DNA from: Periplaneta americana
Taxonomy: Eukaryota > Arthropoda > Insecta > Blattodea > Blattidae
Reading direction: 5' to 3'
Assembly (NCBI RefSeq): GCF_040183065.1
Contig: NC_091130.1
Location: 28,256,359-28,320,358, forward strand
DNA: 64,000 nucleotides
A program made the translations under genes and the position numbers. How positions within the stretch are numbered: the stretch's first letter is position 1; every line of letters begins with the position of its first letter. Of this stretch, positions 36,593 to 63,168 are shown piece by piece. Under the pieces are notes generated by a model. That model made no database searches. It saw nothing but the letters and a program-made list of their open reading frames with translations, and was not told the DNA's origin.

Positions 36593-37337
36593 GAAAGCCC
36601 CTAATTGTCGTCTTTAGTGTTACTTCCATCTAGCGTCAAAAGTTTCTATTAACACGAAAAAAATAATAAAGCGAAAAGCATTGTAATGGTAAAAAAAATT
36701 ACTAAAACCTGTTATATTTTCACTGATGCATTTAAAAGGCAAGATTTGATCTCACGAGCTCTTAACTATCACTCTACAAACTACTCTAAAGGTCTGCGCA
36801 CACAGACACGGGACGCGGGAGCGGTAGCGAATGCGAAACCGACGCGAATTATTGTAACTACAGCGGGATATGAATCCACTCACACCAAGCCACAGTGGGC
36901 CAGAATCGACTCAAAATGGGACAAAATTATTTTATGTCTCTATTGTTTTCTTGGATGCATAAAATCAATAGTTATTCAATCCTTTTAAGAATGTGACCCT
37001 AAACAGCTGATAGACCGGTCGTATGTCATGAAAATTAGCAGAGGGCATCTTTAGACCATAAACAAATTTTTAAAAATAAAAACAAAGAAACGATTTTTTT
37101 AACAAAAATGGCAAAATCTCGCTTCAGTGTATCCTTGGGGACATTATACTGAAATTACTAACTTCCATATTTTTAAAGCTAAATTCACAAAATGTTAGCA
37201 CTAGTATATCTGGTTAATAATAACGCATGTACAAAATGTTGTCCCTCTATGATAAGTGGTTTGCATTTTATTAGTAACTTAATAAAATATTGTATTGCTT
37301 TATATAAAAAGTTCCTTGCGCCATAATTTACATTATT
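36593..37337. other. Unassigned intronic stretch
   Basis: A GC-richer block at 36795-36920 (GACACGGGACGCGGGAGCGG) resembles a block near 44.85 kb and may be a small DNA element. No gene was seen. Confidence 0.35.
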
Positions 37338-59040: not shown

Positions 59041-59560
59041 TCAGAGCATTGGAGGATATCATGTCCAAGGTGCTGTCAGGAACTTTTCATTTTCGGAAGA
59101 CTTCTAAGGACTCTCGTGGGATTGTGCCTCTAGCCCCAATCATAATTCCTATAACGTCCCATGTCTTGATTTTATATTTGGTCCCAAAATCGCTGGAGCA
59201 TGGCAGATAAATTGCCCGCTTTTCTTTGCAGACTTCTCTAGGTTGTTCCTCGCTGTTCTCAAAACGGACTGTGAGATCTAAAATGTGTCCACAATTTTTT
59301 TTCGGTCTATAACAATGATATCTGCTCTTCGAGTTGATCCGTCAGCGGAAAGGCACCCAATTTCCTCGTACACCTCATGCTTATCAGCCCGGCGAACTGC
59401 TTCTATCACGTCCGCTGTCATTAGGTTGAAGAGTAGGGGGCTGACGGGATCTCCCTGCAACACACCGTTTGTTTGCGTGATGGGCCTTGATGTTTTTAGG
59501 TTGTCGCTTATGTTCACATTATACTCTAACATATCCCTTATTATGTTAGTGAGATAATTC
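59041..59560 (-). pseudogene. R2-like element, RT and endonuclease fragment
   Basis: It reads NVNISDNLKTSRPITQTNGV, LQGDPVSPLLFNLMTADVIE, then directly IGCLSADGSTRRADIIVIDR. After a frameshift come ILDLTVRFENSEEQPREV and GIMIGARGTIPRESLEVF. RT motif B (QGDPVSPLLF) is fused to the endonuclease motif (RRADIIV..ILD.TVRFE) with the RT catalytic pair deleted. Same family type as 45700-45995. Confidence 0.75.
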
Positions 59561-60342
59561 CGTCCAAACTTGGTCTCCAGCTTTGTAACTAATATCTGTC
59601 TGTCTAGCTCTAATAATAATTAATATCTTTAATTGATGATCTAGTGGACTTACTCGTGTTAAATATGTAATATTTTCCGGCTTACAGCTGTTTCAGTGCA
59701 TCACGCACCATCATCAGAGCCTACTAGATCTCGGCGTCATCTCGAACTTCTCTGCCTGTTAGGAGGGTGTGTTTTATTGTTGGAATGTATTGGATTGTGT
59801 GGTCGAATAGTGTGTGTGTACTGAAATTGATCTGTGTGTTGAGGATTTGATCGGGGTGTGTTTTAGTGTGTTTGTATATTTCGTATTGTTCTAGTGTGTT
59901 GAGTTACGAAATATACAAACACACACACACTAAAACACACCCCGATCAAATCCTCAACACACAGATCAATTTCAGTACACACACACTATTCGACCACACA
60001 ATACAACACATTCCAACAATAAAACACACCCTCCTAACAGGCAGAGAAGTTCGAGATGACGCCGCACAGTGGTCAATATCGCGATATTAGGAGGACAAAA
60101 GTCGAAATTTCGAGTTTCCCTGATGATGTTTTGTTGTATGGGAATGCGATAACAAAGAACCAAAGCTTTCTAAACTGAATATAGTTTATGGCTTCGATGT
60201 TTGTATTAAACTTGAGAGAGGGTCAAAGTTATGGGTTCTTGCGTATCCCTCAGTCGTGCGTTATCTGCAGTGTGGAGCGATCGCATTTCTTGTGTGGTTC
60301 TGTGTTACTGGTGAAGTGTTTCGTTAAATCTGTTGTGCAGGA

Positions 60343-62542
60343 ATGGAGAAGAATGTTGAAGGTATGTTTTACATTTTATTCCAAATCTATAACATTAATA
60401 GTTTGGGTGTACATGCTTAACACTTATGCGCGTAAAATATTATAATTTTAAATATATTTCGCAACTTGCTCTTGGAATATAAAAATTGGTTCACGATGGG
60501 TCACGATAAAATCTTAGCAGTCAATTTCCCTAGACCTTAATCTCTAAGCCTGCATATATTTTATTTGCCGAGGTTTGCTCGTTTTTTCAAAATATCTACT
60601 TTCTTGCAGATTGTGCGACTGCAGTTACGCGCCGCGATCTATTCACTTTTCTCCAAAGCACAAACTGTGTAATGAAAGCAAGGTCATCACAAGTGTTACA
60701 ACAATTACTTTCATATGCATTGTCAAAATTGAAATTTGAAGGTTGTGATGAAAACCTTAAGTCAGAACTTTTAAAAAAAATTAGAATTTTTTCATGTAAC
60801 CTGTTACGAAGGTGGAGGTCATGTAATAGGACAATGTCGCGATTTTTAGAGAAATATTCAGAATGGCTTGATATAGAATTGTCAGTTCCAATACCTACTG
60901 AGGAATCTTGCCAAGGAGAAGCCTCGGGTGCAGTTAGAGGGCGCCCAAGGAAACTGTTTTCTTCGAGTAGTGTAAAAACAAAGAAAAGAAAAGTGGAAAA
61001 TCTTTCAAAATCTTGTTCGTCACAAGAACTTGCCCTGGCAACACAGATGTCTCTTACGTATGAAGGTAAAAGAAATGTGGCAACAATTATTCAGAATCTG
61101 TGTCGAAAAGTCCGAGATCAGTCCGGAAAATAAAAACAATTTGCCAACAGCCAGCCATTGAGCCTAATTGTAATACATATACAACAGAGGAGGCACTAGC
61201 TTTGCTTGTTGATTTAAAATTAACAAAACATCAATATGTAGCATTACAAAAAAGTGCGAAAGAAAGAAGCGCAAACATCTACCCGCCATATTATAGACTG
61301 CTAAATGCAAAATCAGAATGCTATCCCAGTCAGGAAGCGCTAATAATTACAGATTCACTGGCAGAAGTAAAATTACAATGTTTACTTGACCACACTGTTG
61401 AGCGTTTATCTATTGTTCAAAAAGAAGTTCTTGAACATTCCTTTCAAAACGAAGAAAACTGAATTCACAAAATTCAAATGACTTACAAATGGGGGTGTGA
61501 CGGGAGCTCAGGCCATTCCCTTTACAAACAAAATATTTCGGGGTATGAAGGAGCTACAGATTCTGAAATACTTTTGTCTTCAATAGTGCCTTTACAACTC
61601 CTGGGTGAAGATGAAGAGTCTGGGCGAAAAACGGTTCTCTGGCAAAATCCAACTATGGTCGACGGCAAAATATGCAACGCTCTCATGGATAATCCTTCAG
61701 CCCAAGTGTGTTACATATGTGGTGCTAAGCCGAAAGACATGAATGATTTGAAAAAAATACAGTCATTACCTATAAATAAAAGTGCATTTGAATTTGGACT
61801 TTCGACACTGCATGCAAGAATTAGATTTTTTGAATGTTTGCTTCATATTGGGTACAGAATAGAAATAAAGAAGTGGCAGGTACGCGGGGATCAAAGGAAG
61901 AAAGTAGCTTATGAGGCAAGGAAAGAAGAAATTATTAACAAATTTAGAACTGAAATGGGCCTTTTAGTTGATGTTGTGAAACCAGGTAGTGGTACCACGA
62001 ACGATGGCAACACTTCTCGCCGATTTTTCGAGAATTCAAAGAAATTGTCTGAAATAACTGGCGTTGATGAAGCTCTTATTCATCGTTTCTCCGTAATTTT
62101 GGACGTTATGTCAAGTGGATATAGCCTGAACATTGGTGCATTAAAAAAGTATGCCTTAGACACTGTTGATCTCTATGTGAAATTGTATGGACGGTACTAC
62201 ATGCCTGCCACTGTCCATAAAATACTTATACATGGTGCAGATGTTATGAACAACATGATATTGCCTATTGGACAGTTATCAGAAGATGCCCAAGAAGCCA
62301 GACATAAAGAGTATAGATTTTTCCGAGAACACAACACTCGAAAAATCTCAAGAACAAATTGTAACAAGGACCTTTTGCACATGCTTCTAATTTCTTCTGA
62401 CCCGCTTATTTCAAGCAAAAGGAAATTACCAAGAAAGAAAAGTTCCCTTGGCAGTGAAGTGTTAGGTTTGTTGGAAACACCGAGACTGGACAGCATTGCC
62501 CATGGTTCAACGGATGGGAGTTCAGAAGAGGATAGTGATTAA
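60343..62542 (+). pseudogene. Transib/RAG1-like transposase, one intron, two lesions
   Basis: Exon 1 (60343-60361, MEKNVE) has donor GTATGT; exon 2 starts after TTTCTTGCAG at 60610. Spliced, it reads in frame DCATAVTRRDLFTFLQSTNC into the frame at 60672. RGRPRK (about residue 118) recalls the GGRPR nonamer-binding motif of RAG1. After a frameshift near 61100 comes EALALLVDLKLTKHQYVALQ. A TGA at 61460-61462 interrupts, then YKWGCDGSSGHS (first Asp), MVDGKICNAL (second Asp), VCYICGAKPKD (zinc CxxC), STLHARIRFFECLLHIGYR, KILIHGADV and SEDAQEARHKEYRFFREHNT (Glu). The full protein would be about 650 aa. The gap between the two Asp residues is 54, against 108 in RAG1, so an internal deletion is likely. 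Confidence 0.88.
60362..60609 (+). other. Intron of the Transib transposase gene
   Basis: 248 bp, phase 1, GTATGT...TTTCTTGCAG. The reading frame is continuous only after its removal; the intron itself holds stops. Confidence 0.7.
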
Positions 62543-62696
62543 GGCCGTCTCTTCCTGTGATTGATGGGAAAGAATACCGTCTTCATTTTACAATAATATC
62601 AGGTAATTTATATAATATTTGTAGAAGTTAACAATGTTTATAAATTAGTTGTATCTAAATATCTTGTAACAGTAGGGCATGTTCGTAAAAATTATA

Positions 62697-62745
<49 letters not shown>
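62697..62745. repeat. (AAT)n microsatellite
   Basis: About 16 units, complementary to the ATT run 80 bp downstream. Confidence 0.96.
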
Positions 62746-62749
<4 letters not shown>

Positions 62750-62825
62750 TATTTTCATTATCATTATCAACATGAAGTTGATATTTAGTTAAGTTAACTT
62801 CTAGTTGTATCGCATGTATTTTGAT

Positions 62826-62872
<47 letters not shown>

Positions 62873-62877
62873 CATTA
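62826..62877. repeat. (ATT)n microsatellite
   Basis: About 16 units; it can pair with 62697-62745 as a long hairpin. Confidence 0.96.
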
Positions 62878-63168
62878 TTAAATTTTACGTCTTGTAATCT
62901 TAAGAGTGTCAATTACTAACAGGAAAGTAAAAAAAACCGATGCTATTGCCAGTAGAGAACAAAAAATAATTTTGTCCTCCTAAAATCGAGAAATTGATCA
63001 CTGTGCGCCGCGATCTAGTAGGCTCTGATGATGGTGCGTGATGCACTGAAACAGCTGTAAGCCGGAAAATATTACATATTTAACACGAGTAAGTCCACTA
63101 GATCATCAATTAATTATATTCAAGTGTTAAAAGTGGTGTACGCAAGATTCAAAAATGAATTAATATCT

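Follow-up and report, generated by a model that had tools for sequence, protein, structure and literature searches.

We analysed a window of 64,000 nucleotides from the cockroach Periplaneta americana (contig NC_091130.1, forward strand, positions 28,256,359 to 28,320,358), in which a 2,941-bp element lies at 60065..63005 between two copies of the pentamer CGCCG. It belongs to the Transib DNA transposons, insect relatives of RAG, the vertebrate enzyme that cuts antibody genes; the copy moved recently yet is defective, and very probably it is a non-autonomous cut-and-paste element whose ends would be bound in trans by a Transib transposase. The locus is laid out as follows.

60060..60064, left copy of the target-site duplication CGCCG
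60065..63005, plus strand, Transib element of 2,941 bp, a copy of the short (deleted) subfamily
60065..60100, plus strand, left terminal inverted repeat with the heptamer CACAGTG, a 23-bp spacer and ACAAAA, followed by GTC
60343..60361, plus strand, predicted first exon (ATG...), placed by GT-AG signals and frame; no transcript seen
60362..60609, plus strand, predicted GT-AG intron
60610..62542, plus strand, transposase reading frame, interrupted by one frameshift, one TGA and a 171-bp in-frame deletion
60936..60953, plus strand, RGRPRK, the GRP motif of the N-terminal domain
between 61070 and 61133, plus strand, frameshift in the transposase frame
61460-61462, plus strand, in-frame TGA
61499..61501, plus strand, first catalytic Asp by alignment (HzTransib D126, numbering from PMC6941560)
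61645..61652, plus strand, deletion junction, where 171 bp (57 residues) of the long subfamily are lacking
61661..61663, plus strand, second catalytic Asp by alignment (HzTransib D225, same numbering)
61709..61720, plus strand, CxxC (CYIC), zinc site
62216..62233, plus strand, HxxxxH (HKILIH), partner in the zinc site
62294..62296, plus strand, catalytic Glu by alignment (HzTransib E436, same numbering)
62970..63005, minus strand, right terminal inverted repeat with CACAGTG, a 23-bp spacer and ACAAAA, followed by TTA
63006..63010, right copy of the target-site duplication CGCCG

The terminal inverted repeat is 36 bp long, is identical at 32 of 36 positions and stops directly after ACAAAA. At the left end CACAGTG and 23 bp are followed by ACAAAAGTC, which agrees at 7/9 positions with the nonamer of the RAG recombination signal sequence (RSS), ACAAAAACC; at the right end the corresponding block is ACAAAATTA, with 6/9. 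Matches of at least 6/9 occur at 1.6% and of at least 7/9 at 0.25% of window positions, both strands considered. Exact heptamers, 23-bp spacers, these two counts and the outer CGCCG duplication had all been given, correctly, in the initial annotation of the locus. The empty site is visible as well, in the opposite arm of a surrounding palindrome (59622-60031, reversed), which is 92% identical over the junction. The palindrome itself is a fold-back repeat (59622-60064 and 63006-63140) with long arms, 92% identical over a 415-column alignment, whose outer limits are estimates. The GC-rich duplication fits CGNCG, the preferred target of Transib (PMC4735498; table in PMC5704228).

The transposase frame carries D, D, CxxC and E in the RAG1/Transib order, together with RGRPRK, as the initial annotation had stated, and HxxxxH in addition; the frameshift, the TGA and the 171-bp deletion had escaped mention. 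Residues 293-349 of protein P0001, 57 in all, are lost through the deletion; they lie between the first and second catalytic acids and include three that are invariant in a set of 123 sequences. All three catalytic acids are kept despite this loss, and the first two stand 54 residues apart in the window copy versus 104-129 residues in the 123 sequences. Because of the deletion within the catalytic domain, the nonsense codon and the frameshift, the window copy is not expected, from its sequence, to encode a working transposase. Homology of the transposase and its DDE residues in order place it in the Transib superfamily, and the closest match by a wide margin is HzTransib, not a member of an unrelated superfamily. 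Apart from the transposase pieces the element contains no frame of at least 100 codons from ATG, GTG or TTG, as befits the one-protein Transib elements. Pfam searches with the three window frames, P0001 and four relatives returned nothing above the curated cut-off, and P0004 and P0043 matched Pfam RAG1 below it. Scans of viral contigs and prokaryote genomes yielded 21 pattern stretches each, none of them confirmed, and no relative.

The genome we searched comprises 3,231,669,367 bases in 91 pieces (figures that fit assembly PAMFEO1_priV1, described as 3.23 Gb in 91 scaffolds with an N50 of 188.1 Mb; PMC12774602). A DNA search gave 208 candidates, of which 40 were scored; 40 places were fetched, the window copy included, and four with no clear end (L021, L022, L033 and L045) were left out of the counts, leaving 36 copies. 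Perfect 5-bp duplications flank 32 of the 36; 21 of these 32 read CGNCG and all 32 have CG at their start or end, while the duplications of L010, L028 and L039 are one base off and that of L043 does not match. Allowing at most two mismatches, a 30-bp end pattern found 90 ends genome-wide (42 and 48 by strand), or about 45 copies, and its reversal found none. Since other copies have the same ends together with duplications of their own, a chance origin of the ends is excluded. The initial annotation had named different ends in other copies, or the lack of a GC-rich 5-bp duplication, as signs that it was mistaken, and neither was found.

Within a family the copies differ too little to test the nonamer-like block, and for that reason the comparison was made between groups: A (the window element), B (L050), C (L051), D (L054-L056), E (L057), F (L058, with L052 and L053), G (L049) and H (L062). 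At the protein level groups B to H are 41-50% identical to P0001 (for H the figure is 49%, with P0123 as reference), identities being measured to A and F only. The ends of B to F were located by repeat and duplication, requiring only CAC and five of seven bases common to both ends. For the left ends of G and H a heptamer-like pattern was used, and the heptamers there, preceded by CGGCG and CGACG, are partly chosen as a result; the right ends of these two groups were not found. The inner block was used to find no end. L059-L061 were set aside as decayed relatives of family A with 81-88% protein identity. CACAGTG begins all eight left ends (A to H) and all six right ends (A to F), and in every one of the 14 ends GG and then an A-rich block stand at position 28 or 29. 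The block has the form GGNCAAAA in ten ends, lacks the N in both ends of B and in the right end of F, and reads GGAGAAAA in the right end of E.

Such a block might have no function, its A-rich, nonamer-like look arising by chance or simply because the ends share an ancestor. Transib ends are homologous, and D and E look plainly related by theirs, so the groups are not independent. Copies within a family are too similar to bear on function. Moreover, most Transib families are reported to have symmetric ends, HzTransib's among them, with little or no similarity to the nonamer (PMC8289069), and HzTransib is active in vitro (PMC6941560). Three lines of evidence make a functionless block unlikely. 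First, left-end identity, computed with one hand-placed gap in B, D, E and F, is 100% over the heptamer and 93% over the block at 29-36, against 41% over the spacer and 43% over the next eight bases. Second, the mean match to ACAAAAACC over spacings of 3-59 is highest at 22 and 23 (5.36-5.75 of 9; median, 2.5). The best match at 22 or 23 bp is 6-8/9 in the eight left ends, reaching 8/9 at exactly 23 bp in group G, and 5-6/9 in the six right ends, the core of the nonamer being kept across groups and its tail not. Summed over the left ends, the best match is 53/72, a value that none of 20,000 shuffles attained (maximum 41); shuffles ignore common descent, and the contrast in identity with the spacer is the stronger argument. 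Third, CACAGTG-N21-GGNCAAA, which captures the 23-bp form only, occurs 3,706 times genome-wide (1,831 and 1,875 by strand) versus 31 times for the reversed pattern; among the 100 of these that were listed, neighbours no more than 6 kb apart form 19 pairs oriented towards each other, and no pair points away or runs in tandem. By these sequence comparisons, conservation of the ACAAAA block between Transib groups exceeds what chance would give, the point that the initial annotation had proposed to test.

Throughout groups A to F the block occupies the same place in both ends, at equal or nearly equal spacing, and no pair with 12- and 23-bp spacers was found among these groups. The window element, with spacers of 23 and 23, thus offers no model of the 12/23 rule. 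A further Transib-like end, comprising CACAGTG, 23 bp and ACAAAA with a GGNCAAAA block, lies at 36891-36926 on the plus strand; no partner for it was found within the window.

The 171-bp deletion defines a short subfamily. Its 14 full copies lie 0.2-0.65% from their consensus, compared with 0.9-2.9% for the 22 long copies. Short copies differ pairwise by less than 1.2% and each sits at another site with its own duplication. Reading from the second exon was possible in 27 of the 40 copies (the anchor was missing in the other 13), and the TGA is present in 12/12 readable short copies and 2/15 readable long ones, with two of the 15 giving no call there. Frameshift and nonsense codon might also be explained if an autonomous element had died and decayed at this site, so that the window copy were its remnant and not a mobilised non-autonomous one. 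We regard this as very unlikely, since short copies at other sites, with duplications of their own, have the same deletion and, in each of the 12 that could be read, the same nonsense codon. At so little divergence these common defects must predate the spread of the subfamily, and transposase from elsewhere was then needed; judged from the sequences, copies of the window's kind probably moved in trans. Three results weigh against this account. The short copies form one clade with only moderate support (0.73), joint support for that clade with the two long copies sharing the TGA is just 0.245, and none of the 27 readable copies has a whole open frame that could serve as a transposase source. 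A candidate source is another Transib group of the same genome, the P0123-like group (L062 and 19 other places), in which 17 of 20 matches are stop-free over the core (query 135, 137 or 141 to 603; 47-49% identical) and 5 of 14 upstream pieces listed have a TGA; these 20 rows were grouped by identity to P0123 and may not be one family. Perhaps the P0123-like group is currently active. Uninterrupted frames of 702 and 690 codons are present in L050 and L052, from other Transib groups.

The 3' part of the element contains (TAA)n and (TTA)n microsatellites (62684-62889) that form a mutual inverted repeat and are perhaps a source of length variation among copies. Outside the element, an open frame on the minus strand (59278-59532) includes the stretch NGVLQGDPVSPLLFN, which we take to be a motif resembling non-LTR reverse transcriptase.

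Mobilisation of the window element would begin with binding of its ends in trans by a Transib transposase from another copy or family. The catalytic core would act at the CACAGTG heptamer, and the inner GGACAAAA block, some two turns of the helix deeper in the element, would probably be held by the N-terminal GRP domain. HzTransib moves by cut-and-paste with hairpins on the flanks (PMC6941560), and a hairpin mechanism may by analogy apply here. After excision, joining to a target of the CGNCG type at positions staggered by 5 bp would produce the CGCCG duplication.

The GRP motif precedes the core in most relatives (G in 115/123, R in 119/123, P in 114/123). When a model of the transposase was compared with PDB structures by VIA-align, 30 RAG1 rows were obtained. 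In nine of these (5zdz, 6oet, 6dbl, 6dbv, 6dbw, 4wwx, 6cim, 6cik and 6dbx) the alignment starts at model residue 55-60, opposite chain residue 390-395 or 409, presumably the start of the RAG1 nonamer-binding domain (NBD), and takes in the GRP motif. An equivalent NBD with conserved GRP positions has been described in both Transib subgroups (PMC9435367). We infer that the GRP domain reads the inner block. We suggest, tentatively, that two-part recognition, core to heptamer and N-terminal GRP domain to nonamer-like block at symmetric 22/23 spacing, may be ancestral in Transib, that domain and block may have been lost together in the HzTransib lineage, and that RAG may have inherited the arrangement and added 12/23 asymmetry and RAG2. 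Several observations speak against these readings. The nine rows that take in the GRP region have root-mean-square deviations of 5.1-10.0 Å, which we put down to the hinged domain. The other 21 rows omit the N-terminal region and start at 131-134, including 3jbw, which is titled as having the NBD. A sequence search of the PDB with the N-terminal GRP region alone returned no RAG1 chain at E up to 10. Finally, 20-bp spacers occur at the left end of L027, whose 5-bp duplication matches, and at that of L061; both ends are family-A-like. The spacing is therefore not strict; either bases were lost after insertion or the transposase tolerates the shorter form.

HzTransib, from Helicoverpa zea, is the nearest known system. 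Its solved chain (PDB 6pqn, 6pqr, 6pqu, 6pqx, 6pqy and 6pr5) has no GRP part, its first residue lying opposite model residue 132. Since that residue seems to be close to number 18 of the native protein, little can be missing from the structure. HzTransib is active whereas the window copy is defective, and its ends, unlike those described here, reportedly show little or no nonamer similarity (PMC8289069). The Transib families that Kapitonov and Jurka (2005) described in insects share RSS-like ends and 5-bp duplications with ours, and are reported to have symmetric spacers of 20-22 bp in some cases and 12/23 asymmetry in others (PMC8355894), whereas ours combine symmetric 22- or 23-bp spacers with an exact CACAGTG. 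Transib ends have been likened to RSSs since that work, on account of near-23-bp spacing and a nonamer-like block (PMC8355894), so RSS-like ends on a Transib are already known and are not a new kind of evidence. The initial annotation had called the copy a good model for how signal sequences arose; the RSS-type ends stand, but they are 23/23, the copy is defective and the likeness was in print.

With the RAG1-RAG2 recombinase the system has in common the heptamer CACAGTG, a nonamer-like core, the RAG1-core fold and, in 9/30 fold alignments, a GRP motif at the start of the NBD. The nonamer match is just 6-8/9 at the left ends of the cockroach groups, and, in contrast to the recombinase, the window element has neither RAG2 nor 12/23 asymmetry, and it transposes and assembles no genes. 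ProtoRAG and the other RAG-like (RAGL) transposons of amphioxus, oyster and nemertean carry both RAG1L and RAG2L, in convergent orientation; the window element encodes one protein, and no frame suitable for a RAG2-like gene was found within its 2,941 bp. HzTransib and the window element we take to belong to Subgroup II of Transib. Least likely of all is that the element is itself a RAGL transposon or stands near the direct ancestor of RAG and is not an ordinary Transib, since the exact heptamer, 23-bp spacing and RAG1-core fold that would favour this are set against the absence of a RAG2-size second gene, the match to HzTransib, the evenly spaced ends of groups A to F and the report that RAG1L lies nearer to Subgroup I than to Subgroup II, to which most known Transibs belong (PMC9435367). 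The RAGL elements of protostomes have their second conserved block directly after the heptamer (PMC7204232, PMC8289069). Literature searches for Transib with cockroach or Periplaneta americana gave nothing on these elements by titles and abstract openings, and the word Transib is absent from the main text of the assembly paper (PMC12774602); the family may be in Repbase or Dfam.

A Transib origin of RAG1 and of RSSs is widely held. How nonamer recognition arose has been hard to test, because the HzTransib structures lack the N-terminal domain and, by report, the nonamer. The cockroach element is a new addition to the known Transib superfamily that brings a testable point on nonamer recognition, its value being that a two-part signal resembling that of RAG is present both at its ends and in related families. 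The same genome contains a subfamily that is defective and yet spread, presumably through mobilisation in trans, and several Transib groups with exact RAG heptamers, an N-terminal GRP domain and a conserved inner block at a spacing of 22 or 23 bp. Some of these groups have uninterrupted frames, which makes direct tests of binding and cleavage possible.
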